64,000 nt of DNA from Erwinia pyri (GTDB lineage: Bacteria; Pseudomonadota; Gammaproteobacteria; Enterobacterales; Enterobacteriaceae): positions 2,046,001-2,110,000 of the forward strand of contig NZ_CP132353.1 in assembly GCF_030758455.1 (NCBI RefSeq), read 5' to 3'. The number at the start of each line of letters is the position of its first letter. Positions within the stretch are counted from its first letter, which is position 1. Below, one piece after another: positions 3,611 to 43,798 of the stretch. The translations under genes and the position numbers were made by a program. The notes beneath the pieces were generated by a model. The model searched no databases. It worked only from the letters and a program-made list of their open reading frames with translations, and was not told the DNA's origin.

Positions 3611-3711
3611 AGGGAGAATGGGCTGAACACAAAAACGCCGTGAAATCATCCCTGATGGCTGCGAAGCGGCGTCCATGCCGCTTAGCTTTTGCTTATCAGC
3701 CCGTTCTCCCT
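3611..3711 (+). repeat. Structured repeat element A, copy 1 (101 nt)
   Basis: Four copies of exactly 101 nt occur in the window. A 16-base outer arm (AGGGAGAATGGGCTGA) pairs with the last 16 bases; here the pairing includes a T-G wobble. Inside are a 7-bp hairpin AAGCGGC/GCCGCTT with loop GTCCAT and a small ATCA/TGAT hairpin. It is followed by a conserved tail near TTCCCAATAGC and then by a CCAAAA tract. It lies in the yjfF 3' region. Function unknown. Confidence 0.85.
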
Positions 3712-3753
3712 TCCCAATAGCTGTAGCGTTGCCTGTAGATAAAAACCTACCTG

Positions 3754-3800
3754 CCAAAACCAAAACCAAAACCAAAACCAAAACCAAAACCAAAACCAAA
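3754..3800 (+). repeat. Tandem hexanucleotide tract (CCAAAA)8
   Basis: Eight back-to-back CCAAAA units, the last one base short, lie between element A1 and element B1. This is a simple-sequence tract likely to vary in copy number by slippage. A shorter, interrupted version occupies the same place between A2 and B2. Read on the minus strand the tract is G/T-rich and would encode repetitive Val-Leu, but nothing supports a real protein there. Confidence 0.9.
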
Positions 3801-3868
3801 GCTAAAGACCAAAACTATGCTTTTGACCTGTTTGAGCGCCGAACACACTGGCAAAGCTGAATCTGATG

Positions 3869-3984
3869 GGTGGCACCATAGAGCACGTTAGCCGAGTGTA
3901 TGCCGCAGGGATGCGGCATCCAAGTCTCCAGGGATGGATTCACGACGTCTCGGATAACGTGCTCTGTGGTGACGCCTTGCCACC
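3869..3984 (+). repeat. Structured repeat element B, copy 1 (116 nt)
   Basis: Outer arms GGTGGCACCATAGAGCACGT and its 3' partner, which ends GACGCCTTGCCACC, form a stem of more than 25 bp interrupted by an 8-nt bulge on the 3' side. Inside is a perfect hairpin TGCCGCA-GGGA-TGCGGCA at 3901-3918. The copy is embedded in a 172-bp unit bounded on both sides by TTTTGACC. Four copies of exactly 116 nt exist in the window. Function unknown. Confidence 0.85.
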
Positions 3985-4165
3985 GTACCCGGTTTTGACC
4001 TTACTGCGTCTTAAATAATGTGCCCTGTGGTGACGCCTTACCACCGCACCCGGTTTTGACCTGTGTAAGTCTGAAACTTCCCAAAGTCGTACGCCTTTCC
4101 ACTACCAGTTTCGCGGTAAGGTGTGCAGAAAGGTCAGGACGTCTGTGAATTCAGGCGATCTGGTC

Positions 4166-4266
4166 AGGGAGAATGGGCTGAACACAAAAACGCCGTGAAA
4201 TCATCCCTGATGGCTGCGAAGCGGCGTCCATGCCGCTTAGCTTTTGCTTATCAGCCCATTCTCCCT
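4166..4266 (+). repeat. Structured repeat element A, copy 2 (101 nt)
   Basis: Second copy, 555 bp after copy 1. Its outer 16-bp stem is perfect (AGGGAGAATGGGCTGA with its exact reverse complement at 4251-4266), with the AAGCGGC/GCCGCTT hairpin at 4219-4238. It is followed by the same TTCCCAATAGC tail and CCAAAA tract as copy 1. Confidence 0.85.
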
Positions 4267-4299
4267 TCCCAATAGCTTTAGCGTTGCCTGTTTGAAAAA

Positions 4300-4347
4300 C
4301 CAAAACCAAAACCAAAACCAGATCCAAAACCAAAGCCAAAACCAAAG
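4300..4347 (+). repeat. Interrupted CCAAAA tandem tract
   Basis: About eight CCAAAA-like units with substitutions (CCAGAT, CCAAAG), at the same place relative to A2 and B2 as the perfect tract after A1. The interruptions suggest that this tract is older or less active in slippage. Confidence 0.8.
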
Positions 4348-4428
4348 TATTGCCCCGGCACACATTCGGCGCTGTCAGATTTTGACCTGTGCGAGCACTG
4401 AACTCACCGGCAACACCGAACATTTTGG

Positions 4429-4544
4429 GGTGGCACCACAGAGCACGTTAGCCGAGTGTATGCCGCAGGGATGCGGCATCCAAGTCTCCAGGGATGGATT
4501 CACGACGTCTCGGATAACGTGCTCTGTGGTGACGCCTTGCCACC
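4429..4544 (+). repeat. Structured repeat element B, copy 2 (116 nt)
   Basis: Same length and plan as copy 1. The outer arm here reads CCACAGAGCACGTTA and pairs perfectly with TAACGTGCTCTGTGG; the internal TGCCGCA/TGCGGCA hairpin is identical. It is followed at 4553-4620 by a 61-bp unit holding only the 3' arm of B, the same half-unit that follows copy 1 at 3993-4060. Confidence 0.85.
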
Positions 4545-4726
4545 GTACCCGGTTTTGACCTTATTGCGTCTTAAATAACGTGCTCTGTGGTGACGCCTTG
4601 CCACCGTACCCAGTTTTGACCTGTGTAAGCCTGAAACTTCCCAAAAGTCGTACGCCTTTCCACTACCAGTTTCGCAGTAAGGTGTGCAGGAAGATCAGGC
4701 CGTCTGTGAATTCCAGTGATCTGGTC

Positions 4727-4827
4727 AGGGAGAACGGGCTGAACACAAAAACGCCGTGAAATCATCCCTGATGGCTGCGAAGCGGCGTCCATGCCGCTTA
4801 GCTTTTGCTTATCAACCCGTTCTCCCT
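4727..4827 (+). repeat. Structured repeat element A, copy 3 (101 nt)
   Basis: Third copy, 561 bp after copy 2. The outer arm is GGGAGAACGGGCTGA, and its partner carries the matching change to GTTCTCCC, leaving one mismatch elsewhere. After it the array decays: there is no long CCAAAA tract and no intact B, only a degenerate B 3' part around 4890-4940. Confidence 0.83.
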
Positions 4828-5074
4828 TCCCAATAGCTTTAGCGTTGCCTGTTTGAAAACCCAAATCCAATTACAGTAATGAGATTGGTTTTGGCCTGTG
4901 GTGAAGCCTTGCCACTGCGCCCGGTCTTGACCTGTATGAATGCCAAATCCACCAGTAACGCTAAATTTCACAGGTGGTGCTCCGTAGTGCCAAAACATTA
5001 GCCTCTCTGACAATATTCCCAGAGCAACCGGAATACGTTAAGATGCCAGCCATTCTTATCAACAGGATGTTGTC

Positions 5075-5434
5075 ATGCTTAAACCTTTAATTCTTTTCAT
5101 TTCTTTATTTATTACTGCCTGCTCAACTACGCCAGTCATGCCTTCCGGGAAACCTGAAATAATCAAGCAAGTCAAACCAAACTATCCGGTTTACGCCTAT
5201 AAAAATCGTATCGCTGGGTTTGTGAAATTTGAATACGATGTCGGGGCAGACGGGAAAGTAAGTGAAATGCGGATTAAAGAATCGGAGCCTCAACACTTGT
5301 TTGATGACGCGGCGATTGCTGCAATGGGGCAATGGCGGTTTGAAACCAATAAACCTTACAAGAATCTGCAGCAGAAAATCATCTTCACCATTAACAGCGG
5401 CAACGATCCTGTTACTGGCGCGCTGAAACAGTAA
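5075..5434 (+). CDS. Lipoprotein with a TonB C-terminal domain
   Basis: A 119-residue predicted lipoprotein. Residues 1-15 form a short hydrophobic signal ending in the lipobox-like FITAC, so Cys16 would be lipidated. Residues about 30-110 match the TonB C-terminal fold: YPVYAYKNRIAG, then VKFEYDVGADGKV, then FDDAAIAAMGQWRF. There is no long proline-rich spacer and no ExbBD-interacting transmembrane helix, so it is unlikely to be a true TonB energy transducer and is better described as an envelope protein that reuses the domain. Start ATG 5075 follows a weak ACAGGA. It sits alone between the repeat array and the araBA terminator, and I do not know its partner. Confidence 0.8.
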   Translation: MLKPLILFISLFITACSTTPVMPSGKPEIIKQVKPNYPVYAYKNRIAGFVKFEYDVGADGKVSEMRIKESEPQHLFDDAAIAAMGQWRFETNKPYKNLQQKIIFTINSGNDPVTGALKQ

Positions 5435-5456
5435 CCCGGCGAACGGTCTGCGTTCA

Positions 5457-5482
5457 TAAAAAACGCCCACGTAAAGTGGGCG
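5457..5482 (-). terminator. Rho-independent terminator of araBA
   Basis: Perfect 7-bp stem CGCCCAC/GTGGGCG with loop GTAAA at 5464-5482. On the minus strand it is followed by a run of T (the A run at 5457-5463), and it lies 28 bases past the araA stop. No T run follows on the plus strand, so it serves araBA. Confidence 0.85.
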
Positions 5483-5509
5483 CTGCGGAAACTCAAAAAC
5501 GGATAACGG

Positions 5510-7015
5510 TTAGCGCTGATTCAGACGGTAAAATGCCTCGTTCCAGCGCAAAGCGTCTTTGAAACCGTGCAGCGTGGTTTCTTCATCAATGACCAGCACC
5601 TCAATACCATGCATCTCACCATACTGACGCATATCTTCCACCGTCAGCGCCTGGCTGAACACCGTATGGTGCGCGCCACCGCCCAGGATCCACGCCTCTG
5701 AAGCGGTTGCCAGCGACGGCTGCGCATGCCATAGCGCACGGGCTACAGGAAGCTTAGGCAGCGGTTTTGGCTGCTCGATCGCATCCACTACGTTTACCAG
5801 CAGACGGAAACGGTCGCCCATATCCACCACGCTGGCATTGACCGCGCGGCCCGCCGGGGAGGAGAAAATCATCCTGGCCGGATCGGCCTTGCCGCCAATG
5901 CCCAGATACTGCACGTCAATCAGCGGACGGCTCTCTTTGGCAATGGAAGGGCAGACCTCCAGCATATGCGAGCCTAAAACCAGCTCATTGCCCGGCGAGA
6001 AGTGGTAGGTGTAATCCTCCATAAAGGAGGTTCCGCCCGGCAGACCTGTCGCCATCACTTTGAAAATGTGCAGCAGCGCAGCGGTTTTCCAGTCGCCTTC
6101 ACCGGCAAATCCATACCCCTGCTGCATCAGACGCTGTACCGCCAGGCCCGGCAGCTGTGTCATGCCATGTAACGTCTGGAAGTTAGTAGTAAAGGCCATG
6201 CAGCCTTCATTCTGTAAAAAGCCTTTGATGCCCAGCTCAATCTTTGCCGCATCCAGCACGTTCTGACGCTTCTCGCCATTTACTGCGGCAGCAGCGGTGA
6301 ACTCGTACAGGCTCTCATATTCATCCACCTGGGCGTTAACATCACCCTCGCTGACAGCGTTGATAACCTCTACCAGATCGCCCACGCCCCAGCCGTTGAC
6401 CGAATAGCCAAACTGAATTTGTGCCGCGACCTTATCACCCTCGGTTACCGCTACTTCACGCATATTATCGCCAAAACGAGCGACTTTCAGCTGCTGGCTC
6501 GCCTGTTTTGCCGCCGCTGAACGCATCCATTTGCCCAGACGCTCCTGCGTGGTTTTATCCTGCCAGTGACCTGTAACCACGCTGTGCTGAAGACGCATGC
6601 GCGCGCCAATGAAGCCAAACTCGCGGCCGCCGTGTGCGGTCTGGTTCAGGTTCATAAAGTCCATATCCATGCTGTCCCACGGGATTTCAGCATTAAACTG
6701 GGTATGGAACTGCAGCAGCGGTTTGTTCAGTACCGACAGCCCGCCAATCCACATTTTTGCCGGAGAGAAGGTGTGCAGCCAGGTGACAATGCCCAGACAC
6801 TCTTCCGCATAATTGGCCTGACGGCAGAGTGCCAGCGCCTCATCGGGGCTTTTTACCAGCGGCTTCAGAACCAGCGTAAAGGGCAGATTCCCCTCGCGGT
6901 TCAGCCCGTCCACCACCTGCTGACCATGCTGTTCGACCTGACGAAGCGTTTCCGCGCCATAAAGATGCTGGGTGCCAATAACAAACCAGACGTTGTAAGA
7001 AGCAGGCTGAGTCAT
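5510..7015 (-). CDS. araA: L-arabinose isomerase AraA
   Basis: Cytoplasmic isomerase converting L-arabinose to L-ribulose, first step of arabinose catabolism. The product of 501 residues matches E. coli AraA (500) end to end from memory: N-terminal [12 protein letters not shown], then [31 protein letters not shown], and the active-site segments [34 protein letters not shown] and [10 protein letters not shown] chose the start at 7015 because AAGGAGAAC precedes it and the family begins here; the frame stays open to 7234 but would read into araB. It lies 10 bases after the araB stop, so the two genes form an araBA operon. Confidence 0.97.
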
Positions 7016-7025
7016 GTAGTTCTCC

Positions 7026-8708
7026 TTAAATTTGGGTCGGCTGAGCGGCAAACTGAGGTTCGGCCACTTCACACCACTGAAGATAACGTTGATAAAGTTG
7101 TTGATAGCGTTCGACGCGGGCGGCATCGGGTTGCAGAGTGGTGGCGATTGGGCTGGCCATTTTCTGCTGGGCAGAAGGGACATCGGGATAAACGCCCGCG
7201 GCAACAGCGGCAAAAATCGCTGCGCCCAGTGCACAACACTCGTCAGAGGCGACGATATCCAGCGGGCGGTTCATCACATCGCAACAGACCTGCATAATGG
7301 CGGGCGATTTTCGGGCGATGCCGCCCAGCGTCAGGATGCTCTCCACAGGAATAGACTGCTGCTCGAAGCACTCCATAATGGCGCGGGCGCCAAAGGCGGT
7401 GGCGGCGATAAACCCGCCAAACAGCGTTGGCGCATCGGTGCCAAGGTTGAGGTCGGTAATGACCCCCTGCAAACGTTGATTAGCAAACGGCGTGCGGCGG
7501 CCGTTGAACCAGTCCAGCACCACCGGCAGATGGTCGAGTTGCGGATCGTCTGCCCAGGCTTTGGTCAGATCGTTCAGCAGGGTTTTGCGGATGGCGTCAA
7601 GCTCTGGCTTCAGCTCAGGATGACGCTGGCCCGCCTGCTCAAGCGGCCAGCAGAGCAGACGGCTGAACCAGGCGTACATATCGCCAAACGCGGATTGTCC
7701 CGCTTCAAGACCGATCATCTCCGGCACCACGCTGCCGTTTACCTGACCGCAAATGCCTTTAATTGCCCGGTCGCCCACGCGCTCCGGATCGGCAATCAGA
7801 ATGTCGCAGGTTGAGGTACCGATCACTTTCACCAGCGTATAGGGGCCAGCTCCGGCTCCCACCGCGCCCATATGGCAGTCAAACGCACCGCCGGAAAGGG
7901 TCACGGTAGTGGGCAGGCCAAGGCGTTCTGCCCATTCGGCGGTGATCTGGCCCACCGGCAAATCAGCGGTCCAGGTCTCGTTGAACAGAGGGGTATCCAG
8001 GTGTTGGGTCAGCATCGGATCCAGCGCATCTAAAAACTCGCTGGTGGGCAAACCCTGCCACTCCGGGTGCCAGAGCGATTTATGCCCCGCCGCACAACGT
8101 CCACGGCGCATATCAGCCGGTGCGGTAGTGCCGCTCAGCAGCGCAGGTACCCAGTCACAAAGCTCAACCCAGGAAACGGCGGCTTCACGCACCGCACGAT
8201 CCTCACGGCTGACGTGCAGGATCTTGGCCCAGAACCATTCGGAAGAGTAAATGCCGCCAATAAAGCGCGAATAGTCTTCAAACTCTCCGCTATGGCAGAG
8301 CGTAGTGATCTCCTCCGCCTCTTTAATCGCAGTATGGTCTTTCCATAACACGAACATGGCGTTGGGGTTGTCGGCAAATTCAGGCCGCAACGCCAGCACC
8401 TGACCCTCGCGGTCAACTGGGGCAGGCGTCGAGCCGGTTGAATCCACGCCGATGCCGACAACGTTGTGCCGCTGTTCAGGGGTCAATTTGGTGACAACGT
8501 CACGTATGGCCTGCTCGAAGGCGTCTATATAGTCCTGAGGATGATGGCGAAACTGATTAATACGACTCTGACAATAGAGTCCTGCCTGCCAGCGCGGGTA
8601 GGCCACGACTTCTGCATATAACTCTTTGCCGCTGGCACAGTCTACGGCTAATGCCCGAACCGAATCGCTTCCGAAATCCAGGCCTATGGTGATGGCTCCC
8701 AACTGCAT
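7026..8708 (-). CDS. araB: Ribulokinase AraB
   Basis: Phosphorylates L-ribulose to L-ribulose 5-phosphate with ATP in the cytoplasm. At 560 residues it is of normal length for the FGGY kinase family. The N-terminal phosphate-binding segment [15 protein letters not shown] and the C-terminal [15 protein letters not shown] region are intact. The start at 8708 has GGAGATCAGAG before it. It is first gene of the araBA operon and diverges from araF across a 364-bp control region. In E. coli the operon continues with araD; here it ends after araA with a terminator, so the 4-epimerase must be encoded elsewhere if the pathway is complete. Confidence 0.97.
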
Positions 8709-9072
8709 TCTCTGATCTCCAGACGATATGGTTAATCCTGTCTGACTACCCTATGAAGTTGGCGCGGTTTCGGTTAGGCAAAGTACGCTGCAAATATGCA
8801 CTTTTCTGTCATCTCGGGAGAATATGTGACGCAGCTCAAATGTTACATGAAGGTTAATTTTGCTGAATGCATGGACGAAATCGCTGAAATCACAGGGTGT
8901 GATAGCGCTCTCCCTTTCCTTGCTAAGTTCCCGTTAAAACTAGCGCTCATCGGCACAGGTTTCGCTGTCCTGACCGAAAAACTTGCGCTTTTAAGCCCTT
9001 ACCTGGGCAGCAATCTGAATGATACCGTTTACATCACACCGCCTGAAAGCGGGTACTGAGCCGGAGAGCCTC
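8709..9072. promoter_or_regulatory. Divergent araB-araF control region
   Basis: This 364-bp gene-free stretch separates araBA from araFGHC and should hold both promoters and the AraC and CRP sites. By eye I see a partial CRP-like site TGTGA-N6-TCAAA at 8825-8840 and a perfect inverted repeat ATCACA-GGG-TGTGAT at 8889-8903. Two loosely similar tracts start at 8941 (TAGCGCTCATCGGCACA) and 8962 (TCGCTGTCCTGACCGAA), exactly 21 bp apart, the usual AraC half-site spacing, but their match to the AraC consensus is modest. I could not place confident -10/-35 boxes. A small open frame across 8796-9059 has no ribosome-binding site and I do not regard it as a gene. Confidence 0.5.
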
Positions 9073-10056
9073 ATGCACAAAATACCCTACGCACTGGCCG
9101 CAATTGGCCTCGCAGCCGTTATGTCACATTCAGCTATGGCTGAGACCATGAAACTCGGTTTTCTGGTGAAACAGCCGGAAGAGCCCTGGTTCCAGACTGA
9201 GTGGAAGTTTGCTGATAAAGCCGGCAAAGAGATGGGCTTTGAAGTCATTAAAATTGCCGTACCGGACGGCGAGAAAACGCTGAACGCCATCGACAGTCTG
9301 GCGGCAAGCGGGGCAAAAGGCTTCGTTATCTGTACGCCAGATCCCAAACTCGGCTCCGCTATTGTGGCTAAAGCACGCAGCTACGATCTGAAAGTCATTG
9401 CGGTGGACGATCAGTTTGTCACTGCCAAAGGCAAACCGATGGAGACTGTGCCGCTGGTAATGATGGCCGCCACCAAAATTGGCGAGCGTCAGGGACAGGA
9501 ACTCTATAAGGAGATGAAGAAACGCGGTTGGGAAGCGAAAGATACTGGCGTAATGGCGATCACCGCTGACGAGCTGGATACCGCCCGTCGCCGCACCGGT
9601 GGATCAATGGATGCGCTGAAAGCGGCCGGCTTCCCGGCAGATCAGATCTACAAAGTCCCTACCAAATCCAACGACATCCCGGGCGCCTTTGATGCCGGTA
9701 ACTCACTGCTGGTACAGCATCCGGGCGTGAAGCACTGGCTGATCCTGGGCATGAATGACAACACTGTGCTCGGTGGCGTTCGTGCGACGGAAGGTCAGGG
9801 CTTCAAGGCAGCAGACGTGATTGGCATTGGCATCAACGGTGTGGATGCCGTGAATGAACTCTCAAAAGGCCAGGCTACCGGCTTCTACGGTTCACTGCTG
9901 CCAAGCCCGGACGTGCATGGCTACAAGAGCATCCAGATGCTTTACAACTGGGTGACCAAAGATGCTGAACCAGCGAAGTTTACCGAAGTGACCGACGTGG
10001 TGCTGATCACCCGTGACAACTTCAAAACGGAACTGGCGAAAAAAGGCCTGATGTAA
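9073..10056 (+). CDS. araF: L-arabinose periplasmic binding protein AraF
   Basis: Periplasmic receptor of the high-affinity AraFGH arabinose importer. It has 327 residues with a Sec signal peptide of about 23 residues, cleaved near SAMA-ET. The mature protein follows E. coli AraF closely from memory ([38 protein letters not shown], the [16 protein letters not shown] end). The ATG at 9073 follows CCGGAGAG and gives the canonical MHK start; the frame is open further upstream, but that part lies in the control region. It is first in araFGH-C. A strong hairpin with a short T run lies between araF and araG, fitting the higher need for binding protein than for membrane parts. Confidence 0.96.
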
Positions 10057-10064
10057 CCCCGTGA

Positions 10065-10089
10065 GGACGGCGCCACGCGCCGTCCTTTT
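10065..10089 (+). terminator. Intercistronic hairpin between araF and araG
   Basis: Perfect 9-bp stem GGACGGCGC/GCGCCGTCC with a 3-nt loop, followed by TTTT. It starts 9 bases after the araF stop and ends 19 bases before the araG ATG. It resembles the partial terminator or 3' stabiliser that commonly follows binding-protein genes and lowers expression of the downstream ATPase and permease. Confidence 0.75.
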
Positions 10090-10108
10090 AAAGCTGGCAG
10101 GAGGAATA

Positions 10109-11632
10109 ATGAGTACGCAACCCGCCTATCTGAGTTTTCATGGCATCGGGAAAACCTTTCTCGGCGTTAAAGCCTTGCAGGATATCAGCTTTGAATGTGG
10201 TGCCGGAGAGATCCATGCCCTGATGGGGGAAAACGGCGCGGGGAAATCCACGCTGTTGAAAATTCTCAGCGGCAGCTATCAGCCCAGCAGCGGAGAGATC
10301 CGCCTCAAGGGGGAGCCCGTCAGTTTTACGCACACCACAGCCGCGCTGGATGCGGGGGTAGCCATCATCTATCAGGAGCTGCATCTGGTGCCGGAAATGT
10401 CGGTGGCAGAGAATATCTATCTGGGCCAGCTGCCGCAAAGAGCGGGCTTTGTTAACCGCAAGCTGCTGCGGTATGAGGCCGGAGAACAGCTGAAAAACCT
10501 GGGGATGGATATCGACCCGGATACTCCGCTTAAGTCACTTTCACTCGGCCAGTGGCAGATGGTTGAAATTGCCAAAGCACTGGCGCGTAACGCCAAGGTG
10601 ATCGCCTTTGATGAACCCACCAGTTCGCTCTCTGCCCGTGAGATTGAGCATCTGTTCCGCGTGATCCGTCAGCTGCGCGAGCAGGGCCGCGTGGTGCTGT
10701 ACGTCTCGCATCGCATGGAAGAAATTTTCGCCCTGAGCGATGCGATTACCGTGTTTAAGGATGGTCGCTATGTCCGCACCTTTAACGATGTCCCCAACAC
10801 CTCGCACGATGAGCTGGTGCAGGCGATGGTAGGGCGTAATATCGGTGATATCTACGGCTATTCACCGCGTAAAACCGGCGCGGTGCGGCTGCAGCTGAAT
10901 GAAGTGCAGGCCAAAGGGGTAAGGAAGCCAATTTCGCTTAACGTTCATGCTGGCGAAATCGTGGGGCTGTTTGGCCTGGTCGGGGCCGGTCGCAGCGAAC
11001 TGATGAAAGGGCTGTTTGGCGCCACCAAACTCACCGGCGGCGAACTACGTCTGGATGGCGAACCGATTGTGATTAAAGAGCCAGCCCACGCGATCCGCGC
11101 CGGGATCCTGCTCTGCCCGGAAGATCGTAAGGCGGACGGCATCATTCCTGTTCACTCGGTGCGGGACAACATCAATATCAGCGCCCGGCGCAATAACCTT
11201 ACCGCAGGCTGTCTGATCGACAATCAGTGGGAAGGTAAAAATGCGGCGAAGCATATTCGTTCCCTTAATATCAAAACGCCTTCAGCCGATCAGCTGATCA
11301 TGAACCTCTCCGGGGGTAACCAGCAAAAAGCCATTCTGGGCCGCTGGTTATCTGAAGATATGAAAGTGATCCTGCTTGATGAGCCAACCCGCGGCATCGA
11401 TGTCGGCGCCAAAAATGAAATCTATACCCTGATTTATGCGCTGGCGGAACAGGGCATTGCCGTGCTGTTTGCCTCCAGCGATCTGCCTGAGGTTATGGGG
11501 CTGGCGGACCGCATTCTGGTGATGAGAGAGGGCGAAATTGCCGGTGAGCTCAGCCATGACCAGGCCACGGAAGCGTTAACGCTCAGTCTTGCTATGCCAA
11601 AAACCACCCAACACACTGCCGCTGTGGCCTGA
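10109..11632 (+). CDS. araG: L-arabinose ABC importer ATP-binding protein AraG
   Basis: Double-domain ATPase energising arabinose uptake with AraH and AraF. The 507 residues are near the E. coli length of 504. Walker [10 protein letters not shown] is at residues 40-48 and the first Walker B region reads [17 protein letters not shown]. The second domain has [15 protein letters not shown] and [16 protein letters not shown]. The start at 10109 follows GGAGGAA; an upstream in-frame ATG at 10061 would translate through the araF hairpin and is unlikely. araH follows after 17 bases. Confidence 0.96.
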
Positions 11633-11649
11633 TTAGAAGGAGTATCGTT

Positions 11650-12642: not shown

Positions 12643-12653
12643 CAGGAGGCGTT

Positions 12654-13565: not shown

Positions 13566-13653
13566 GCGAAACGGGACAATTCAGCGCATTCCCGCTTGTC
13601 CTTACCCGGTTGATAGTCTTAAATCATCTGGGTAAAGGACAAGAGGAATGCAA

Positions 13654-33797: not shown

Positions 33798-33893
33798 TGC
33801 AAATCCTTTCAGGAAGTTAAATCATCATTTACTGTAATAAGCGCTCAGTATGATGTCTAATCTATTAATAATCTTAAATGAGACTTTAAAGAT

Positions 33894-34805: not shown

Positions 34806-34886
34806 GGCACTTTTATGTGCTGTAAATCACATTCCGAATCAAATATTTGACGGCATCCGTGAAGTGTTTCACCATGCAGATATGCT

Positions 34887-34908
34887 TTATTTTGAAGCGT
34901 GAAAATAA
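34887..34908. promoter_or_regulatory. Mlc-type operator in front of mlc
   Basis: Perfect inverted repeat TTATTTT-N8-AAAATAA, the form of the E. coli Mlc operator. It ends two bases before the AGGAG ribosome-binding site of mlc, so Mlc bound here would repress its own gene. Confidence 0.8.
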
Positions 34909-34921
34909 CCAGGAGCAGGGT

Positions 34922-36139: not shown

Positions 36140-36268
36140 ATATTCGCACTTAGTGAAAAAATGTTGCGCTAACGCAAACCGATCTCATCTCGCCTGACCT
36201 ACCATGCCTGCTCTGACAGTTAATGAAATTTAATTGATTGGCCAAACGGGGCCGATGGAGAGGGCATA

Positions 36269-36934
36269 TTGAAGCAGTTATTTGTCACTGGCACCGATAC
36301 CGAGGTGGGGAAAACAGTGGTCAGCCGTGCGCTTTTGCAGAAACTGACAGAAGGCAATAAACTCACCGTGGGCTACAAGCCTGTAGCCAAAAGCAGCCAG
36401 CAAACGGAGGAGGGGCCGCGTAATAAAGATGCGCTGATTTTACAATCTTCCTCTTCATTGCAGCTACCCTATGCCGCGATCAATCCGGTCACAGCACTGG
36501 ATGATGAGCTCAGCACCAGCCGCGATACCGCTATCGATTACTCCACGCTGAGCGCCGGTCTGCGATCGCTGGCAGCGCAGGCAGATTATGTGGTTGTTGA
36601 GGGAACGGGTGGCTGGCGAAGCCTGATGAACGATCTCAGACCGTTGTCGGAATGGGCTGTTGAAGAGAAGCTTCCGGTAGTGATGGTGGTAGGGATCAAG
36701 CTCGGTTGCCTGAGCCATGCGTTACTGACCGCGGAAGCTATCCAGAATGATGGCCTGCCGCTGTTGGGCTGGGTTGCCAACCGCATCAACCCTGGCCTGG
36801 CACACTATGCCGAGATCATTAGCGTGCTGAGCAGCAAAATTCAGGCGCCGTTGCTGGGTGAGCTACCCTATTTACCGCGTGCCGAAACGCGGGATCTGGC
36901 AAAATATCTGGATCTGAGTGCGCTGAAATTGTGA
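36269..36934 (+). CDS. bioD2: Dethiobiotin synthetase-like protein BioD2 (YnfK)
   Basis: ATP-dependent carboxylase-type P-loop enzyme, paralog of dethiobiotin synthase BioD. It has 221 residues, Walker A GTDTEVGKT at residues 8-16, the phosphate-binding VVEGTGGWRSLMN segment and GWVANRINPG, all as in E. coli YnfK. The reading frame begins at a TTG codon preceded by GGAGAGG; no ATG gives a full N-terminus. It follows mlc by 129 bases as in E. coli. Whether it makes dethiobiotin in vivo is uncertain for this paralog. Confidence 0.9.
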   Translation: MKQLFVTGTDTEVGKTVVSRALLQKLTEGNKLTVGYKPVAKSSQQTEEGPRNKDALILQSSSSLQLPYAAINPVTALDDELSTSRDTAIDYSTLSAGLRSLAAQADYVVVEGTGGWRSLMNDLRPLSEWAVEEKLPVVMVVGIKLGCLSHALLTAEAIQNDGLPLLGWVANRINPGLAHYAEIISVLSSKIQAPLLGELPYLPRAETRDLAKYLDLSALKL

Positions 36935-37003
36935 TAGCCCGGTTAGCTGCAAAGCCTGCCGATGAATGTATTACATCGACGAGCTTAACAGACACACTAT
37001 TAG

Positions 37004-37030
37004 CAGCCAGCGGCTAATCACCGCTGGCTG
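37004..37030. terminator. Hairpin between convergent bioD2 and osmV
   Basis: Perfect 10-bp stem CAGCCAGCGG/CCGCTGGCTG with a 7-nt loop, placed 70 bases after bioD2 and 6 before the osmV stop. No clear T run follows on either strand, so termination is plausible but not certain. Confidence 0.5.
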
Positions 37031-37035
37031 GATCG

Positions 37036-38175
37036 TTAAGCCAGATTCAGTACCCGGCGGGTACGGCCTGAACTCAGATAATCTGCAATATAGTCCTGCG
37101 AAATTTCTCCGCTGTACCGGCCTTCTTCATCCACAATTGGCATCCAGACCAGATTGTGCTCATAGAGCTTTGACAGCACAACGCGCAGGTTCTCTTCCGC
37201 GCGTCCGGTTACGGTAAATTTGTTCAGCATATCGGCACAGTGACCTGACGCGCCGCGAGCCTCACGACGTTTCACAAAGCCGAGCGGTTTGCCATCATCA
37301 TCCACTACCGTAATTGAGCGCATATCGTTATCGTCCATCATGCCGAATGCCTCAGAGAGCGGGGTGCTTTTCCTGACGGTGATGGTGGGTTGCTGGTCAG
37401 TTACGTCACCCGCCTGGACTAACAGCAGTCGCTTCAGGGTACGGTCCTGGCCGACGAAAGATCCGACAAACTCGTTAGCTGGTTTTGCCAGAAGCTCATC
37501 CGGGCTGGCGCACTGCACGATTTTACCCTGGCCAAATACCGCAATGCGGTCACCCAGCTTCAGCGCTTCATCAATGTCGTGGCTGACCAGCATCACGGTT
37601 TTCTTCAGCTGTCGTTGCATATCCAGGAATTCATTCTGGATCGCTTCACGGTTGATCGGGTCGACCGCGCCAAAAGGTTCATCCATCAGTAAAACCGGTG
37701 GATCGGCAGCCAGGGCGCGGATCACGCCGATACGCTGCTGCTGGCCGCCAGACAACTCGCGGGGGTAGCGATGCAGGAAGTTTTTGGGATCCAGCGCAAC
37801 CATACTCATCAGCTCACTGGCGCGATCGCGGCAACGTTTCTTGTCCCAACCCAGCATCCGGGGCACCACGGTAATGTTCTCCTCGATGGTCATATTCGGG
37901 AACAGACCAATCTGCTGAATAACATAACCTATGTTCCGGCGGAGGGTAACAGTATCCAGTCCGCTGGTATCTTCACCGTTGATCAGAATCTTACCGCTGG
38001 TCGAGGGGATCAGGCGGTTGATCATCTTGAGAGTGGTCGATTTGCCGCAGCCGGAAGGGCCGAGCAGCACGCACATTTCGCCTTCCGGCACGTTAAGGCT
38101 GACGTTGTCTACGGCGTTAAAAGTGTTGCCGTTTTTCTGGCTAAAAGTTTTGGTGAGGTTTTCCAGTTTTATCAT
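37036..38175 (-). CDS. osmV: Osmoprotectant ABC importer ATP-binding protein OsmV
   Basis: ATPase of a glycine betaine/choline-O-sulfate-type importer, 379 residues. The ABC domain has Walker A GPSGCGKST near residues 39-47, signature LSGGQQQRIGVIRAL and Walker B VLLMDEPFGAVD. A tandem CBS-domain region occupies about residues 250-379 (for example DDDGKPLGFVKRREA and VDEEGRYSGEISQDYIADYL), the usual ionic-strength sensor of OpuC/OsmU ATPases. It is the last gene of a four-gene operon and overlaps the osmW stop by one base (TAATG). The permease-binding protein-permease-ATPase order and length fit Salmonella OsmU (osmVWXY) better than E. coli YehWXYZ, whose ATPase is shorter. Confidence 0.85.
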   Translation of the reverse strand: MIKLENLTKTFSQKNGNTFNAVDNVSLNVPEGEMCVLLGPSGCGKSTTLKMINRLIPSTSGKILINGEDTSGLDTVTLRRNIGYVIQQIGLFPNMTIEENITVVPRMLGWDKKRCRDRASELMSMVALDPKNFLHRYPRELSGGQQQRIGVIRALAADPPVLLMDEPFGAVDPINREAIQNEFLDMQRQLKKTVMLVSHDIDEALKLGDRIAVFGQGKIVQCASPDELLAKPANEFVGSFVGQDRTLKRLLLVQAGDVTDQQPTITVRKSTPLSEAFGMMDDNDMRSITVVDDDGKPLGFVKRREARGASGHCADMLNKFTVTGRAEENLRVVLSKLYEHNLVWMPIVDEEGRYSGEISQDYIADYLSSGRTRRVLNLA

Positions 38176-38822
38176 TATCGAATCCCCTTCGGAGTCAGCG
38201 CCAGCTGCAGGCGGTGCAGCAGCCAGTCGAGAATAATTGCCAGCAGGCAGATCATCAGCGCGCCTGCAATCAGCATGCGGATATCGCTGCCGCTGATACC
38301 ATCCAGCAGCAGCAGGCCCAGTCCGCCGGCACCAATCACGGCGGCAATGGCCATTACGCCTACGTTCATCACTACTGCGGTACGAATGCCGCCAAAAATC
38401 ACCGGCAGCGCCATCGGGATCTCAACCCAGCGCAAACGCTGTGAGAAAGTCATACCAATCCCGCGACCCGCTTCGCGAAGTCCCGGTGGAATATTCTCCA
38501 GTGCCGTATGGGTGTTGCGCACGATAGGGAGCAGCGAGTAGAGGAACACTGCGGTTACCGCAGGCAACACTCCAATCCCCTGGCCCACCAGCGAAAACAG
38601 CGGGATCATCAGGCCAAACAGTGCAATGGAAGGGATGGTGAGCACAATGGTCGCCAGGCCGAGGACCGGTGTCGCCAGCCATTTATAACGAACGATAACA
38701 ATCCCCAGCGGCACGCCGATGACGATCGCCATGCCCACAGCCAGCGCCACAAGCCAGAGATGCTGGAAGGTCAGTGTGGCCAGATAGCTCCAGTTATCAA
38801 TAATATAGTGAAGGGTGTCCAT
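38175..38822 (-). CDS. osmW: Osmoprotectant ABC importer permease OsmW
   Basis: Inner-membrane permease of 215 residues with about six membrane segments, BPD_transp_1 family. The permease loop contacting the ATPase is in RNTHTALENIPPGLREAGRGIG and the segment after it. GAGGAG lies before the ATG at 38822. It is coupled to osmV by a one-base overlap and follows osmX by 9 bases. It forms a heterodimeric channel with the first permease of the operon (inferred from the two-permease layout). Confidence 0.85.
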   Translation of the reverse strand: MDTLHYIIDNWSYLATLTFQHLWLVALAVGMAIVIGVPLGIVIVRYKWLATPVLGLATIVLTIPSIALFGLMIPLFSLVGQGIGVLPAVTAVFLYSLLPIVRNTHTALENIPPGLREAGRGIGMTFSQRLRWVEIPMALPVIFGGIRTAVVMNVGVMAIAAVIGAGGLGLLLLDGISGSDIRMLIAGALMICLLAIILDWLLHRLQLALTPKGIR

Positions 38823-38831
38823 AGGGTCTCC

Positions 38832-39755
38832 TCAGATCAAACCTTTAGATTTCAGGAAATCACTTGCCACCTTCTGCGGAGACTGATGATCGATATCAAC
38901 GCGTTTGTTCATTTCGGTAATCGCATCATCGGTGATCAGTGGCGACAGGCTGTTAAGCGCTTCGGCCAAGCCGGGATGTGAATCGAGCGTGGCCTGGGTC
39001 ACTACCGGCGTAACGGCATAGCTTGGGAAGAAACCTTTATCATCTTTCAGGATTTTCAGATCGAAACCCTTCACGCGGCCATCGGTGGTGTAGACCAGCC
39101 CGGCATCCACAAAACCATCCCGGATAGCGTTATAAACCAGTCCGGGATCCATCTGCCGGATCTGCGGCCGATCCAGCGGCATGTTATAGGCTTTCTGCAA
39201 CGGCTTCATACCGTCTGAACGTCCGGCAAACTCCAGATCCAGGCCCAGCATCCAGTTATGGTCCGGGTCGTTTTTGCGGATATCTTCAATTTTGGCCACC
39301 AGCTGTGACATCGTTTCAATGTGCTCTACATCAGCACGTTTACGCTGCATAGCGAACGCATAGGTATTATTCATCGGCGCGGGATTGAGCCAGACCAGAC
39401 CCAGTTTGGCATCCAGTTTTTTCACCGTGTTATAGGCCTCTTCAGACGACATTGGCTTATTGATATGGTTGAAAATAATCAGCGAGGTGCCGGTGTACTC
39501 CCAGGTCATATCAATCTGCTTGTTGATCATCGCATTACGGCCAATAGTGGTGGCAATATTGGTTTTGGGCTCTACCTGGAACCCTTTTTTACGAAGATAC
39601 TGCGTGGTCAGGGCAGAGAGAATGTGCTGCTCGGTAAAGCTTTTGGTTGCCATTCTGATCGGTTCGGCCGCTGCGGTAGCGCTCATCGCCAGCGTGGCTC
39701 CCAGCGCCAGCGCGGTATATCTGACCCAACGGGTCATTGAGAAGGCCTTAGCCAT
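38832..39755 (-). CDS. osmX: Osmoprotectant periplasmic binding protein OsmX
   Basis: Periplasmic substrate-binding protein of 307 residues with a Sec signal peptide cleaved near TAAA-EP (residue 30). The mature part is an OpuAC/ProX-like fold: [20 protein letters not shown], then [30 protein letters not shown] and [13 protein letters not shown]. Probable ligands are glycine betaine or related quaternary amines, inferred from the family. AGGAGTG precedes the ATG. It is the second gene of the operon, between the two permeases. Confidence 0.86.
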
Positions 39756-39774
39756 GATTCACTCCTGATTATTC

Positions 39775-40491
39775 TTATACGGCCGTGTGAGGGCTTAAAA
39801 TACGGCCCAGGCCAGCCAGCAGCATATCGAGGATCAGCGCAAATAACGCTGTTGCTGCGGCGCCAAGGATTAGCGTAGGGAAGTCATTAAGGTAAATGCC
39901 GGGGAAGATCAGCTCGCCATAGCTGCTGGCGCCAATCAGAAACGCCAGCGGCGCGGTGCCGACGTTAATAGCTGTTGCCACGCGAATGCCGGAAAGCATA
40001 ACCGGCCAGGCGTTGGGTAGTTCGACCTGGCGTAACCGCTGGCCTTTAGTCATGCCGATGCCCTTAGCCGCTTCAGTCAGAGAAGCAGGTACCGAGCAGA
40101 GACCGGAGTAGGTGTTACGGACAATTGGCAGTAAGGAAGCCAGGAACAGCGCGATAATGGCAGGACGATCGCCGATCCCCAGTACCACCATCGCCAGCGC
40201 CAGTACGGCAAGCGGCGGAAGAGTATTACCGACGTTGAAGATCTGCATGACATATTCAGCCCATTTGCGGGCGAAAGGGCGGCTGAGGAGGATCCCGCTG
40301 GGAATACCGACCAGCAGGGCGAAGAGCATTGACCAGAACACCAGCAGCATATGTTGCTGACCAAGGTAAAGCAGATCGACCTTACGGGCTTTAATCGTCT
40401 CAATCCCAAGGCCGTAAACCAGCAGGCCAATGACGACAGCGATAAAGATCACGGCGAGTAGAGCGCGCCGGAGCAGAGTATGATGTTGCAT
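39775..40491 (-). CDS. osmY: Osmoprotectant ABC importer permease OsmY-type
   Basis: First gene of the osmoprotectant operon, a 238-residue permease with about six membrane segments. The ATPase-contacting loop is in RNTYSGLCSVPASLTEAAKGIG. I chose ATG 40491 (MQHH) because AGGGAGA is correctly spaced to it but too close to the ATG at 40500; the frame is open to 40560. In Salmonella OsmU this position is named osmY; it is not related to the E. coli periplasmic protein of the same name. The upstream 407-bp gap should hold the osmotically induced promoter. Confidence 0.8.
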   Translation of the reverse strand: MQHHTLLRRALLAVIFIAVVIGLLVYGLGIETIKARKVDLLYLGQQHMLLVFWSMLFALLVGIPSGILLSRPFARKWAEYVMQIFNVGNTLPPLAVLALAMVVLGIGDRPAIIALFLASLLPIVRNTYSGLCSVPASLTEAAKGIGMTKGQRLRQVELPNAWPVMLSGIRVATAINVGTAPLAFLIGASSYGELIFPGIYLNDFPTLILGAAATALFALILDMLLAGLGRILSPHTAV

Positions 40492-40898
40492 GAATCCCAT
40501 TCTCCCTGACAATCCCAAAGGGATAGTGCTAATTAACAATCTGGCCATTTCAGTGCGCAAAAGAGGCGCGTTGCCAGAAAACGTCTTACTTTCTCAAAAC
40601 CAGACAGATGAGCTGAAAAAGTGTGACGTTTAACGCTTTTTGTTGATAAAGGGTCTGAAAGCGCCTTCAATCTATAGCAGCCTTGAACAGGTAATGCCAA
40701 GTTTAAGGCTTAAAATCAGAGGCATAGTTTTGATGAACAGGGCGCTCAAACCCTTACCGGTACTGGCCTGAGTTCAATGAAAATATTTTATCGATCAAAA
40801 AGTGACACCGTCACAATTAGTGCTCAGTAAAAAGCACTTTTCGGAAACTGTTGCCCCCATTCCAGGCCAGAATAAAGGAAGCTTACTCAAGGAGACTT
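40492..40898. other. Divergent gap between the osmoprotectant operon and the DHA2 exporter
   Basis: A 407-bp A/T-rich stretch with no credible gene. A short inverted repeat, GTGAC-ACC-GTCAC, lies at 40802-40814 upstream of the exporter gene; its spacing does not fit CRP. Promoters for both flanking units must be here, but I could not place them with confidence. Confidence 0.5.
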
Positions 40899-42353
40899 AT
40901 GTCTGATACAGCTCAACACCAGGTGACGCATCGCCACTGGATCCTGGTTGCCGCTATGCTGGCGATGTTTATGGCGGCCATTGAGGTGACCATCGTCGCT
41001 ACGGCGATGCCGACCATTATTGCTGAGCTCGGTGGGTTTTCGCAGTTTGGCTGGGTTTTTTCCATCTACTTGCTGACCCAGGCAGTAAGCGTGCCTGTTT
41101 ATGGCCGTCTGGCAGATTTGTGGGGCAGAAAGCGAGTCTTTTTCATCGGCACCTCGCTGTTCCTGGCAGGCTCTGTTCTTTGCGGCTTTGCCACTAACAT
41201 GGCCTGGCTTATTCTGTTCAGGGCTTTCCAGGGACTTGGCGCCGGGGCGATCATGCCACTGACTTCCACCATCATCGCCGACGTCTATCCCCCTAAAGAG
41301 CGCGCCAGCATTCAGGGCTGGCTCTCCAGCGTCTGGGGCATAGCCGCTATAACCGGCCCGTTAACGGGCGCGTGGATTGTGCAGCACTTCAACTGGGCGC
41401 TGATCTTCTGGGTCAACGTGCCCATTGGGATTGTCTCCATGCTGATGCTGGCCCGCTGGTTCCCTGAATCCCACAATGAGAAGGCGCAAAAGCTGAACCT
41501 GGCGGGTAGCGCCTGGCTGATGCTGACCGTCAGCGCGTTGCTGACTGCGTTATTACAGGCGGAATCACTGGGTTACTGGGCTTTCGTGCTGATTGCGGTG
41601 GCTTTGTTGGCGGGAATAGCGCTGTTGCGCCATGAAAAAGGGGCCGATGAACCGCTCTTTCCGATGGCGATCTGGCGCAGCCGTACGCTGGTGGCAGGCA
41701 ACGCCGGCAATCTGGTTATCGGCGCTGCCATGATGGGGATCAGCGCCTTTTTACCTACCTGGATCCAGGGCGTAAACGGCGGAACGCCGCTCCAGGCGGG
41801 GAGCGCGCTAGCAATGATGTCCATTGGCTGGCCGCTGGCCAGTACCCTGAGCGGACGGCTGATGCAAAAAACATCCTACCGTTTTACTGCCCAAACAGGG
41901 GCCGTACTGCTGATTCTGGGAACCTCATTACTGTTAACCCTGCACAGCAGCAGCTCGGTTCTGCATGCCGCACTCTCTGCTTTTGTTATTGGCACTGGCA
42001 TGGGAATGACCAGTACTACCTTCCTGATTGCCGTGCAGAATACGGCAGAGTTCTCTATCCGGGGTATTTGCACCGCATCCATTATGTTCAGCCGTATGCT
42101 GGGTTCAGCGCTGGGAACGGCAGTGATGGGGGCAGTACTGAATTACAATCTGATGGTTCGCCTGCCGGGGCATGACGATCCGGTACAGCAGATCATGTCC
42201 CAGCCGCAGCGCGATGCGCTCGGTCAGGGGGTGCTGCATTCTATGGTGAATGAAGTCGCGCATTCACTGCACTGGGTTTTTGTGGTATCGGTAGGGATCG
42301 CCGTGGCCAGCCTGCTGATCGCTCGCTGGGTTCCTGCAACCAAGCCGCATTAA
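40899..42353 (+). CDS. DHA2-family (EmrB/QacA-type) multidrug exporter
   Basis: MFS proton-drug antiporter of 484 residues with about fourteen membrane segments. Motif A is present in VYGRLADLWGRKRVFFIG, the first-segment acidic motif in AMFMAAIEVTIVATAMPTI, and the DHA2-typical ASIQGWLSSVWGIAAITGPL after it. AAGGAG precedes the ATG at 40899; an in-frame ATG at 40851 has no such site. No EmrA-type membrane fusion protein is adjacent, so it probably acts alone in the inner membrane. Substrates unknown. Confidence 0.86.
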   Translation: MSDTAQHQVTHRHWILVAAMLAMFMAAIEVTIVATAMPTIIAELGGFSQFGWVFSIYLLTQAVSVPVYGRLADLWGRKRVFFIGTSLFLAGSVLCGFATNMAWLILFRAFQGLGAGAIMPLTSTIIADVYPPKERASIQGWLSSVWGIAAITGPLTGAWIVQHFNWALIFWVNVPIGIVSMLMLARWFPESHNEKAQKLNLAGSAWLMLTVSALLTALLQAESLGYWAFVLIAVALLAGIALLRHEKGADEPLFPMAIWRSRTLVAGNAGNLVIGAAMMGISAFLPTWIQGVNGGTPLQAGSALAMMSIGWPLASTLSGRLMQKTSYRFTAQTGAVLLILGTSLLLTLHSSSSVLHAALSAFVIGTGMGMTSTTFLIAVQNTAEFSIRGICTASIMFSRMLGSALGTAVMGAVLNYNLMVRLPGHDDPVQQIMSQPQRDALGQGVLHSMVNEVAHSLHWVFVVSVGIAVASLLIARWVPATKPH

Positions 42354-42459
42354 AAGTGGTGGGCAGGAACGGGTGATCGCAATAAAGCTCCATCAAAAGG
42401 GCCGGAATAGAATAAGGCATGCGCAAACAAAAATGCAGAAAGGACCAACTGGCAGGATG

Positions 42460-42490
42460 AAACATGGGGGCGAGAACCACCCCCATGTTT
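42460..42490. terminator. Hairpin between the exporter gene and the DUF1161 gene
   Basis: Perfect 11-bp stem AAACATGGGGG/CCCCCATGTTT with a 9-nt loop, ending one base before the stop of the minus-strand gene. The T run is short, so the strength is uncertain; it suits both convergent genes. Confidence 0.65.
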
Positions 42491-42491
42491 A

Positions 42492-42785
42492 TCAGGAGGC
42501 AGGGGCATCCTGAGAGGTTCCGGTGCTGGCCGGGACAGATTCGCTCTCTGAACCGTTGCGCTTATAAACGATTTTTTGCGTATCGTTCGCGCAGTGCCCA
42601 ACAACCTGTCCACCCGCCTGATCGACCTGATCATTTGGCACAACATCCAAGGTAAAATCACCGGCGGCAACGCCGTTATTAATGATTTTCTGATTAATGT
42701 CCGCTTTTACCGTCTCGCAGGAGGCCTGTACGGCCAGCGGCGCGGCGATCATCACTGCGGCTAACATCCACGAATACTGTTTCAT
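42492..42785 (-). CDS. DUF1161 family periplasmic protein
   Basis: A 97-residue secreted protein. Residues 1-21 form a signal peptide (cleavage near VQA-SCE). The mature part carries the DUF1161 pattern: a CETVKADINQKIINNGV helix, then DFTLDVVPNDQVD and VVGHCANDTQKIVYKR, with two cysteines that could form a disulfide. The last 20 residues are Ser/Glu/Thr-rich. It may correspond to E. coli YnfD, which lies in the same chromosomal neighbourhood, but I am not sure. AGGGATGACAGG precedes the ATG. Function unknown. Confidence 0.8.
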   Translation of the reverse strand: MKQYSWMLAAVMIAAPLAVQASCETVKADINQKIINNGVAAGDFTLDVVPNDQVDQAGGQVVGHCANDTQKIVYKRNGSESESVPASTGTSQDAPAS

Positions 42786-42847
42786 CCTGTCATCCCTCTG
42801 TTTACTGGAGCTGTTTGCTTCGGGCTAACTATAGCAGTTCTTATCGA

Positions 42848-43195
42848 TCAGGGAGCAACCGGACGGCCAGTACGACGGTCGAGGCAGCGGAGGGTGTTCG
42901 GTTCCCAGTAAGCATTAACGTTAAGGCTCTGGTCGCAGGCGTCACGGGTATCAACGGCGCGGTCTGCTTTATCAAAGTTCTTTTCAACGCGCGTGTTTAC
43001 TTTACTGCGTAGCCGGTGAGTTTCATCCCACTGCTCTTTCTCCTGACGCGCCTGCTCGTTACTTAATGCGTTATCGCCATCCTGAATAATTAAGCGATCG
43101 GTTTTGGCCTGAGCACTCTGCTGTATGCTGAACAGGGCGCCAAAAAGCACCAGCGGCAGAGCGGCCTTGCTCAGATGTTTTTGCCATTGTTTCAT
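42848..43195 (-). CDS. ynfB: UPF0482 (DUF1283) protein YnfB
   Basis: A 115-residue secreted protein with a signal peptide cleaved near AQA-KTD. The C-terminal [20 protein letters not shown] block is the hallmark of the YnfB family, and the [18 protein letters not shown] segment also matches E. coli YnfB. I chose the ATG at 43195 because AGGAA is too close to the ATG at 43201. It diverges from ynfA, as in E. coli. Function unknown. Confidence 0.9.
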
Positions 43196-43323
43196 CGACA
43201 TTTCCTGATTTCCTCTGTTTTCGCTATTCTTGAAGGCTCATACGTCCAGTAGTGAGTATATCATCTGCCGGAAATGTGTAACCAGTGAGCCGCCCCTTCG
43301 TTTATCTTTCTGAGAGTAAGTTC

Positions 43324-43656
43324 ATGCTGTTTTTCAAGACCACCTTGCTGTTTTTCCTCACGGCCATCGCCGAGATTGTAGGCTGTTTTCTGCCCTGGTT
43401 ATGGCTCAAAAAGAGCGGCAGCATAATCCTGTTAATTCCTGCGGCATGCAGTCTGGCCTTATTTGTCTGGCTGCTTACGTTGCATCCGGCAGCCAGCGGC
43501 AGAGTTTACGCGGCCTACGGCGGTGTTTATGTGGTCACGGCATTAATCTGGCTGCGGTTTGTGGATGGCGTGAAGCTCACGCATTACGACTGGCTGGGTG
43601 CTACCGTAGCGTTTTGCGGCATGCTGATCATTGTTGCCGGGTGGGGAAGGGCTTAG
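43324..43656 (+). CDS. ynfA: YnfA family inner-membrane protein (UPF0060)
   Basis: A 110-residue protein with four membrane segments, related to small multidrug resistance proteins. Recognisable segments are [36 protein letters not shown] and [11 protein letters not shown], as in E. coli YnfA. I chose the internal ATG at 43324 because the family starts there and GAGAGTAAG precedes it; the open frame to 43285 would add 13 residues. A copy of repeat element A begins 42 bases after its stop. Confidence 0.92.
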
Positions 43657-43697
43657 CGATAAAAAGGGCACTTTGTCTGAAGGTTTGGGGCCAGGTC

Positions 43698-43798
43698 AGG
43701 GAGAGCGGGCTGAACACAAAAACGCCGTGAACCCTTCCGTGGGGGCTGCGAAGCGGCGTCCATGCCGCTTAGCTTTTGCTTATCAGCCCGCTCTCCCT
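43698..43798 (+). repeat. Structured repeat element A, copy 4 (101 nt)
   Basis: Same length and strand as the three copies 39 kb to the left. The outer arm GGGAGAGCGGGCTGA pairs perfectly with TCAGCCCGCTCTCCC, so two base pairs have changed on both sides relative to copy 2. The small inner hairpin is CCC/GGG in place of ATCA/TGAT. The central AAGCGGC/GCCGCTT hairpin is unchanged. Confidence 0.87.

Follow-up and report, generated by a model that had tools for sequence, protein, structure and literature searches.

What is the 101-nt repeat that recurs four times in one stretch of the Erwinia pyri genome, and which of its strands, if either, is selected to fold? The stretch, hereafter the window, comprises 64,000 nt (positions 2,046,001 to 2,110,000 of contig NZ_CP132353.1; coordinates below are window positions unless a locus is named), and the repeat, element A, had been singled out from the letters alone in an original prediction that compensatory changes in its stem imply selection on a folded RNA or single-stranded DNA. 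We find that element A is one form of a real, strongly covarying and strand-specific hairpin module that is dispersed as an insertable repeat, and we predict that this module is most likely a paired docking site for CsrA/RsmA in RNA.

The four copies of element A (3611..3711, 4166..4266, 4727..4827 and 43698..43798) are each exactly 101 nt long, as originally described, with a mean column identity of 93% over 141 aligned columns (20 flanking nt at either end included). In all of them the strand with GGA in its hairpin loops, hereafter the GGA strand, is the minus strand; the first copy has the loops ATGGAC (3671-3676) and AGGGAT (3648-3653), the second and third have the same pair, and the fourth combines ATGGAC with ACGGAA. 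The 16-nt ends do pair, with 16 of 16 Watson-Crick pairs in two of the four copies, pair 13 being T.G in the copy at 3611 and a C.A mismatch in that at 4727. The covariation reported for stem pairs 8 and 9 (A-T/T.G, A-T/T-A, A-T/C-G and G-C/C-G) and for the inner hairpin (ATC/GAT to CCC/GGG) is likewise present. The AAGCGGC/GCCGCTT hairpin, which had been called fixed, is so in recent copies only: it already differs in another copy of the same genome (L021), and in the family at large its stem is free to vary, the loop being the conserved part. Compared with shuffled sequences, the fold z-scores of element A are -6.3 to -7.8 as RNA (four plus-strand and two minus-strand sequences) and -6.0 to -7.4 as DNA (two of each). 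Given 21 matches to element A on both strands of its own genome and a wider family with two-sided changes at 24 of 26 pairs, the repeat is far beyond chance.

Element A has a counterpart that the original prediction did not notice. Element B, the core of which is 71-80% complementary to the core of A, is present in the window in four plus-strand copies, namely 3875..3970 (loops AGGGAT at 3907-3912 and AGGGAT at 3930-3935), 4435..4530, 43921..44016 and 44092..44187 (the last two with the loops AGGGAT and ATGGAC); the ends were set visually where the outer stem stops, and in the first copy they read ACCATAGAGCACGTTA.../...TAACGTGCTCTGTGGT. The minus strand of A and the plus strand of B follow the same plan, in which a long outer stem encloses two hairpins: hairpin 1 with the loop ATGGAC or AGGGAT, then a short linker, and hairpin 2 with the loop AGGGAT, ATGGAC or ACGGAA, followed by a tag near TTCACGGCGTC. 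By inspection, all eight elements of the window have ANGGAN hexaloops. The genome as a whole contains 36 full or partial matches to B and 50 matches to a covariance model, R1, built on A and B together. Several B variants in this genome (L040, L041, L043, L045, L046, L047 and L049) keep hairpin 1 and have hairpin 2 replaced by a GGCTTGCGCTAATGCT... segment, as if by module swapping.

A conformational switch had been considered conceivable on the strength of a competing ACGCCG/CGGCGT pairing. This pairing could form in only three of 64 non-redundant, clearly tagged elements (124 examined) and is absent from the copy of B tested; the alternative pairing not being conserved, the proposed switch is not supported and we reject it.

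The own-genome set of 31 elements (23 distinct) shows two-sided changes at 15 of 26 pairs; because many of these changes separate A from B only once, the set was widened beyond this genome. A strand-neutral search pattern that specifies only the hairpin-2 loop and the tag, leaving hairpin 1 and the outer pairs of hairpin 2 free, retrieved at least 118 stretches with mostly gammaproteobacterial titles, those listed including Stenotrophomonas, Yersinia, Idiomarina, Marinobacter, Vibrio, Arenimonas, Alishewanella, Methylotuvimicrobium, Ectothiorhodospira, Pantoea, Erwinia and others. R1 has 94 matches in 80 of these loci, and another 140 in a set of 93 loci made up of the 38 remaining listed pattern loci and 55 further loci. 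Two-sided changes affect 24 of 26 pairs in both widened alignments, with covariation of 0.709 in the 80-locus set (0.187 when shuffled, at most 0.117 with the partners slid) and 0.741 in the 93-locus set (0.183 and at most 0.105, respectively). In a survey of 274 genomes of the host's class, taken as Gammaproteobacteria, 49 genomes including that of E. pyri have R1 matches; at most 17 candidates per genome were scored, so that the copy numbers are lower bounds.

Alignments fitted to R1 necessarily lean towards it, and two checks were therefore made that do not depend on the model. After removal of three duplicates and two matches near contig ends, hairpin 2 proves to be fully Watson-Crick paired in 108 of the 124 pattern matches listed, and 87 of these 108 also have a hairpin 1 with at least five of six pairs; the loop of this hairpin is ANGGAN in 77 of the 87 and contains GGA in 8 more, and the spacing of the loop starts is 23 nt in 73. 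Of the 16 matches that lack a full hairpin 2, seven have a hairpin 1 and just one of these seven an ANGGAN loop. Some of the 16 come from Mycolicibacterium, Streptomyces, Planctomycetota and Clostridiales and look like chance matches; others are gammaproteobacterial (Alishewanella, Sedimenticola, Neiella, Methylomonas and Methylotuvimicrobium). The wider search with R1 extends the covariation to hundreds of copies and 24 of 26 pairs, and selection on a folded single-stranded form, at first proposed from four copies, is strongly supported by them.

What this selection preserves can be read from 120 non-redundant elements (less than 80% identical without gaps, drawn from 210, with hairpin 2 anchored on GGA; R1, with which they were collected, scores GGA favorably, which is the reason for the model-free check above). 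Pairs 2-7 of hairpin 1 use all four Watson-Crick combinations, whereas its closing pair is C-G in 111 of the 120 and its loop ANGGAN in 110. The distance between the loop starts is 23 nt in 93 elements and 22-25 nt in 115, with a single element at 15 nt and four without a second loop. Among the 116 hairpin-2 stems, UAC/GUA (46), CCC/GGG (29), UCC/GGA (17), CAC/GUG (9) and AUC/GAU (6) prevail, the commonest hairpin 2 being UAC-ANGGAN-GUA (46/116). With all pair combinations in the stems and a near-constant ANGGAN and 23-nt spacing, it follows that the stems drift while the loops and their distance stay.

When a transition removes one partner of a Watson-Crick pair, the result is G-U on one strand but A-C on its complement, and an imbalance between the two counts thus indicates which strand has to fold. 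In the extension of the outer stem, a region not seen by the model, the GGA strand has 113 G-U against 21 A-C pairs (202 elements); the corresponding counts are 74 against 9 for the strand-neutral pattern loci listed and 58 against 13 for 128 non-redundant elements. Over the whole outer stem, G-U is in excess in 86 loci and A-C in 21. When 117 of the 128 non-redundant elements are divided by gene setting, the whole outer stem yields 25 G-U to 0 A-C pairs for the 27 elements that are antisense to both neighbors on their GGA strand, 29 to 8 between convergent genes, 6 to 2 between divergent genes and 16 to 5 near locus ends; the bias in the antisense copies would not be expected if only the mRNA of a neighboring gene mattered. 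The original prediction had read element A on its plus strand, and in this respect it has to be turned around: both the conserved ANGGA loops and the tolerated wobble pairs are on the minus strand of A. Since cruciform DNA would treat both strands alike, it seems to be a single-stranded form of the GGA strand that is under selection, and this form is most likely RNA.

The choice of strand has consequences for a known family of small RNAs (sRNAs). Within the window no Rfam family reaches its gathering score, and Ysr224 (RF02770) matches the elements of the window weakly, its best score in the E. pyri genome being 39.5 bits against a gathering score of 70. However, three Yersinia loci fetched with the pattern and matched by R1 score 94-126.5 bits as Ysr224 (the three tested, out of four Yersinia loci), from which we conclude that Ysr224 and A/B are the same family. 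Ysr224, which is listed among the bacterial sRNAs most often annotated (PMC9029176), is annotated on the strand opposite to the GGA strand. Accordingly, one could envisage a base-pairing sRNA made from that strand, with UCC loops that pair with Shine-Dalgarno sequences. In addition to the Rfam assignment, this is in line with the listing of Ysr224 as temperature-responsive (PMC9029176), with reported differences in expression between Ysr224 copies in Y. ruckeri, given there with no strand (PMC12112432), and with the plus strand of A, on which a terminator-like hairpin followed by AGCTTTT marks the 3' end of the match to Ysr224. Nevertheless, wobble is tolerated on the GGA strand and not on the UCC strand, and a scan of 3401-5100 detected no terminator-like site on the minus strand of B, so we hold such an sRNA to be very improbable. 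As an aside on Rfam families of this kind, below-cut-off matches to Vibrio AS5 (RF02818; 39-51 bits against 96) are found at L153:1903-2026, L153:6777-6900 and L094:7209-7330; three of them belong to a single Yersinia proxima genome, and a further dispersed repeat may underlie this Rfam 'antisense RNA'.

What, then, might recognize the folded GGA strand? We propose, with moderate confidence, that A and B are repeats capable of insertion and that the RNA of their GGA strand offers a CsrA/RsmA dimer two docking sites in one module. The long outer stem would present two C-G-closed hairpins with ANGGAN hexaloops, and the 23 nt from one loop start to the other, which leave 20 nt between the GGA triplets, would be bridgeable by one CsrA dimer. 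A copy transcribed on its GGA strand, whether in a 3' untranslated region, an antisense RNA or a read-through RNA, would bind CsrA, and this binding might protect or mark the transcript that carries it; alternatively, dozens of copies together might sequester a share of the CsrA alongside CsrB. Transcription, binding and consequences, like the RNA nature of the folded form, are inferred here. According to PMC7652899, structures of RsmE determined by nuclear magnetic resonance feature an ANGGAN hexaloop hairpin, in vitro selection (SELEX) with CsrA gives the consensus RUACARGGAUGU, mostly in a 6-nt loop with AC/GU pairing, and sites bridged by CsrA are 10-63 nt apart, best at more than 18; the elements agree with the sites described there in loop, closure and spacing. 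The sponge RNAs CsrB/CsrC and RsmX/Y/Z, too, present GGA loops in hairpins to CsrA (PMC7652899), although they are dedicated genes with many sites per RNA, in contrast to the dispersed two-site repeats A and B. It is true that GGA is also the core of the Shine-Dalgarno sequence, and the loops could conceivably be decoys for another RNA-binding protein or for the ribosome. The hexaloop size, the leading A, the C-G closure and the pairing of sites match CsrA/RsmE in such detail that a decoy of this sort is hardly to be expected.

The distribution of csrA agrees with the CsrA reading but decides nothing. The gene is present in the E. pyri genome and in 58 of 62 element-bearing genomes tested, the full set being 65 with G001, G011 and G013, which have 2-3 matches apiece. 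Since 235 of 274 genomes have csrA, its co-occurrence with the elements is no decisive test, and it was dropped as such. CsrB is also present in the host, and the notion that the elements substitute for it was rejected, given that CsrB occurs in all 22 genomes of the same genus that were examined (G000-G021), with and without elements.

Several observations weigh against docking of CsrA. The association with csrA is weak, with the gene in 45 of 49 element genomes versus 190 of 225 others (one-sided p 0.13) or, among good assemblies, in 39 of 40 versus 173 of 196 (p 0.06), and csrA was not found in G254, a 98% complete assembly of about 270 contigs with at least eight elements, which represents either an assembly gap or a real exception. 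Hairpin 1, with about seven pairs, is longer than in most SELEX winners (PMC7652899). No sigma-70-like promoter was detected in 3401-5100, and between tandem genes the GGA strand runs antisense to the mRNAs in 54 cases and sense in 32. The wobble bias falls short of significance where the GGA strand is sense to both neighbors (14 to 7, p 0.19) and inside long open reading frames (ORFs; 11 to 4, p 0.12), and the hairpins themselves have few wobbles, G-U versus A-C being 24 to 12 in hairpin 1 and 2 to 3 in hairpin 2 (221 of 248 distinct elements parsed, 10 having no clear hairpin 1 with a 6-nt loop and 17 being of other length). Finally, folded single-stranded DNA or a strand-biased C-to-T mutation of transcribed DNA would also fit the bias.

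The closest known relative in architecture is TwoAYGGAY (RF01731), which was predicted in 2010 in the human gut, gammaproteobacteria and Clostridiales (PMC2864571), and for which, together with the reverse complement of Bacillaceae-1, binding of CsrA was proposed in 2014 (PMC4333381). Rfam places TwoAYGGAY in clan CL00106 together with RsmV. Like A and B, it has two GGA-loop hairpins within an outer stem; the motif AYGGAY, read from its name, fits the ATGGAC of hairpin 1 of A but not AGGGAT or ACGGAA, and A and B differ by the TYACGGCGTC tag after hairpin 2. At an E-value of 0.1, TwoAYGGAY has no match in the E. pyri genome; among 15 genomes scanned, its matches number 52 in G002 and 87 in G014, both of the same genus, and 12 in G244, with a single match in either of G038 and G148. 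The 10 others, that of E. pyri among them, have none, and matches above the gathering score are confined to three genomes (G002, G014 and G244). The loop starts are 30 nt apart in the members examined from G014 and G002 (L239 and L240), in contrast to the 23 nt that predominate in A and B, and 23 nt apart, as in A and B, in that from G244 (L241). Hence A and B are TwoAYGGAY-like and form one family with Ysr224, and by Rfam thresholds they are members of neither.

With respect to the manner of dispersal, the most informative site lies between the gene for a short membrane protein and an SDR gene, where a probable A-B-B composite insertion occupies 43694..44217, with the ends GGTCA...TGATC; its flanks are too diverged to delimit a target duplication. 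Among 30 loci read, this gap measures 574 nt with three elements in E. pyri as opposed to 28-197 nt without such hairpins in 23 relatives, which means that, at the one site compared, the element copies are lineage-specific. In the remaining six loci the left gene was not found within reach; in two of them (G035 and G002) the whole 1.5 kb read is filled with hairpins, and the other four were not judgeable. Beside the same SDR gene, G002 contains an array of about 10 kb, with 32 dual GGA hairpins within the 11.7 kb of L272 (G002:C1:2261500-2273200), all 32 with the 23-nt spacing, in which the direction alternates in 29 of 31 neighbors and tandem units of 431-452 nt carry GGTTTTGACC, a sequence that also marks the ends of B units. 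Within the window, a plus-strand tandem array (3439..3628) repeats a 56-nt unit, derived from the left end of A, 3.4 times, the units being truncated copies of A. Neighboring elements less than 500 nt apart (n=60) diverge in 33 cases, converge in 12 and point in the same direction in 15. Hexamer microsatellites of CCAAAA (GGTTTT on the other strand) are situated between A and B at 3754-3815 (10.2 copies) and 4296-4346 (8.5 copies). Spread by plasmids was considered and rejected, as the core of B matches one of 72,556 plasmid records, the one collection searched for it, with 84% identity over 56% of the core.

Filled and empty versions of one site, dispersed copies, the 32-hairpin array, the 33 of 60 close neighbors that point apart and the ends GGTCA...TGATC/TGACC are all features that one would anticipate of selfish DNA similar to miniature inverted-repeat transposable elements or REP sequences, the hairpins of which act as single-stranded DNA on transposases or at replication forks rather than as RNA; furthermore, DNA folded from one strand would likewise prefer G-T over A-C. 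We know of no transposase that would explain the loop sequence together with the spacing, and none is linked to the elements, no search for one having been made, RAYT transposases, the partners of GTAG-type REPs, included. By contrast, both loop and spacing are accounted for by RsmE/CsrA (PMC7652899), and the near absence of the B core from plasmid records (the single partial match) also speaks against mobile DNA of this type. The REP/BIME (GTAG, CGTC), YPAL, ERIC and RU repeats are likewise dispersed, intergenic, present as inverted pairs and located between convergent or same-direction genes (PMC3733652). REPs, however, are single hairpins of 20-40 bp with a terminal tag (PMC3733652), which does not fit the two hairpins per unit, the outer stems with a median of 20 and up to 34 positions, or the 101-nt size of A; CGTC-REPs were rejected as the same thing for this difference in size and structure. 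We consider action as single-stranded DNA rather unlikely. A bolder combination of the two ideas, for which our expectation is lower still than for selfish DNA, would be that of RNA-dependent selfish elements in many gammaproteobacterial families, which would persist or multiply through folded GGA-strand RNA that captures CsrA, with selection on the RNA even in doubly antisense copies, and in high-copy genomes would constitute an evolvable, scattered CsrA-titrating layer beside CsrB.

The genomic setting raises a further possibility. Elements are outside long ORFs in 221 of 268 cases, and among 182 placed elements convergent settings (72) exceed divergent ones (24), the counts being based on a crude ORF picker with near-identical array copies kept in. 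These figures, as well as five terminator-like sites in 3401-5100 versus 2.1 expected, three of which are the plus strand of A, are consistent with an element whose stable stem protects mRNA 3' ends or terminates transcription. Such a function leaves the conserved ANGGAN loops and their spacing unexplained, and would be difficult to reconcile with the strong wobble bias of copies with the GGA strand antisense to both genes; as a general explanation it appears distinctly improbable, while a terminator reading is not rejected for the plus strand of A.

Returning to the paired docking site for CsrA, its architecture and proposed ligand are already known from TwoAYGGAY (PMC4333381), and within the largely open-access literature searched, dispersed repeats are joined to CsrA nowhere else among the matches listed. 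New, to the extent of that literature, are the dispersed nature and breadth of the repeat, the near-fixed spacing, the lineage-specific insertion and the arrays, as are the link of Ysr224 to a two-hairpin architecture on the other strand and the wobble test itself. If CsrA indeed binds, insertion would supply a global regulator with dozens of lineage-specific docking sites, and repeat dynamics would be tied to post-transcriptional control. Moreover, two Rfam families would be joined, Ysr224 would gain what is probably its correct strand as well as a ligand open to testing, and the counting of G-U versus A-C would offer a simple strand test for repeat RNAs.

Elsewhere in the window there are a direct repeat of 185 nt with 91% identity (51206-51390 and 54862-55046) and an inverted repeat of 109 nt with 74% complementarity, the arms of which (59807-59915 and 62146-62254) are 2230 nt apart.

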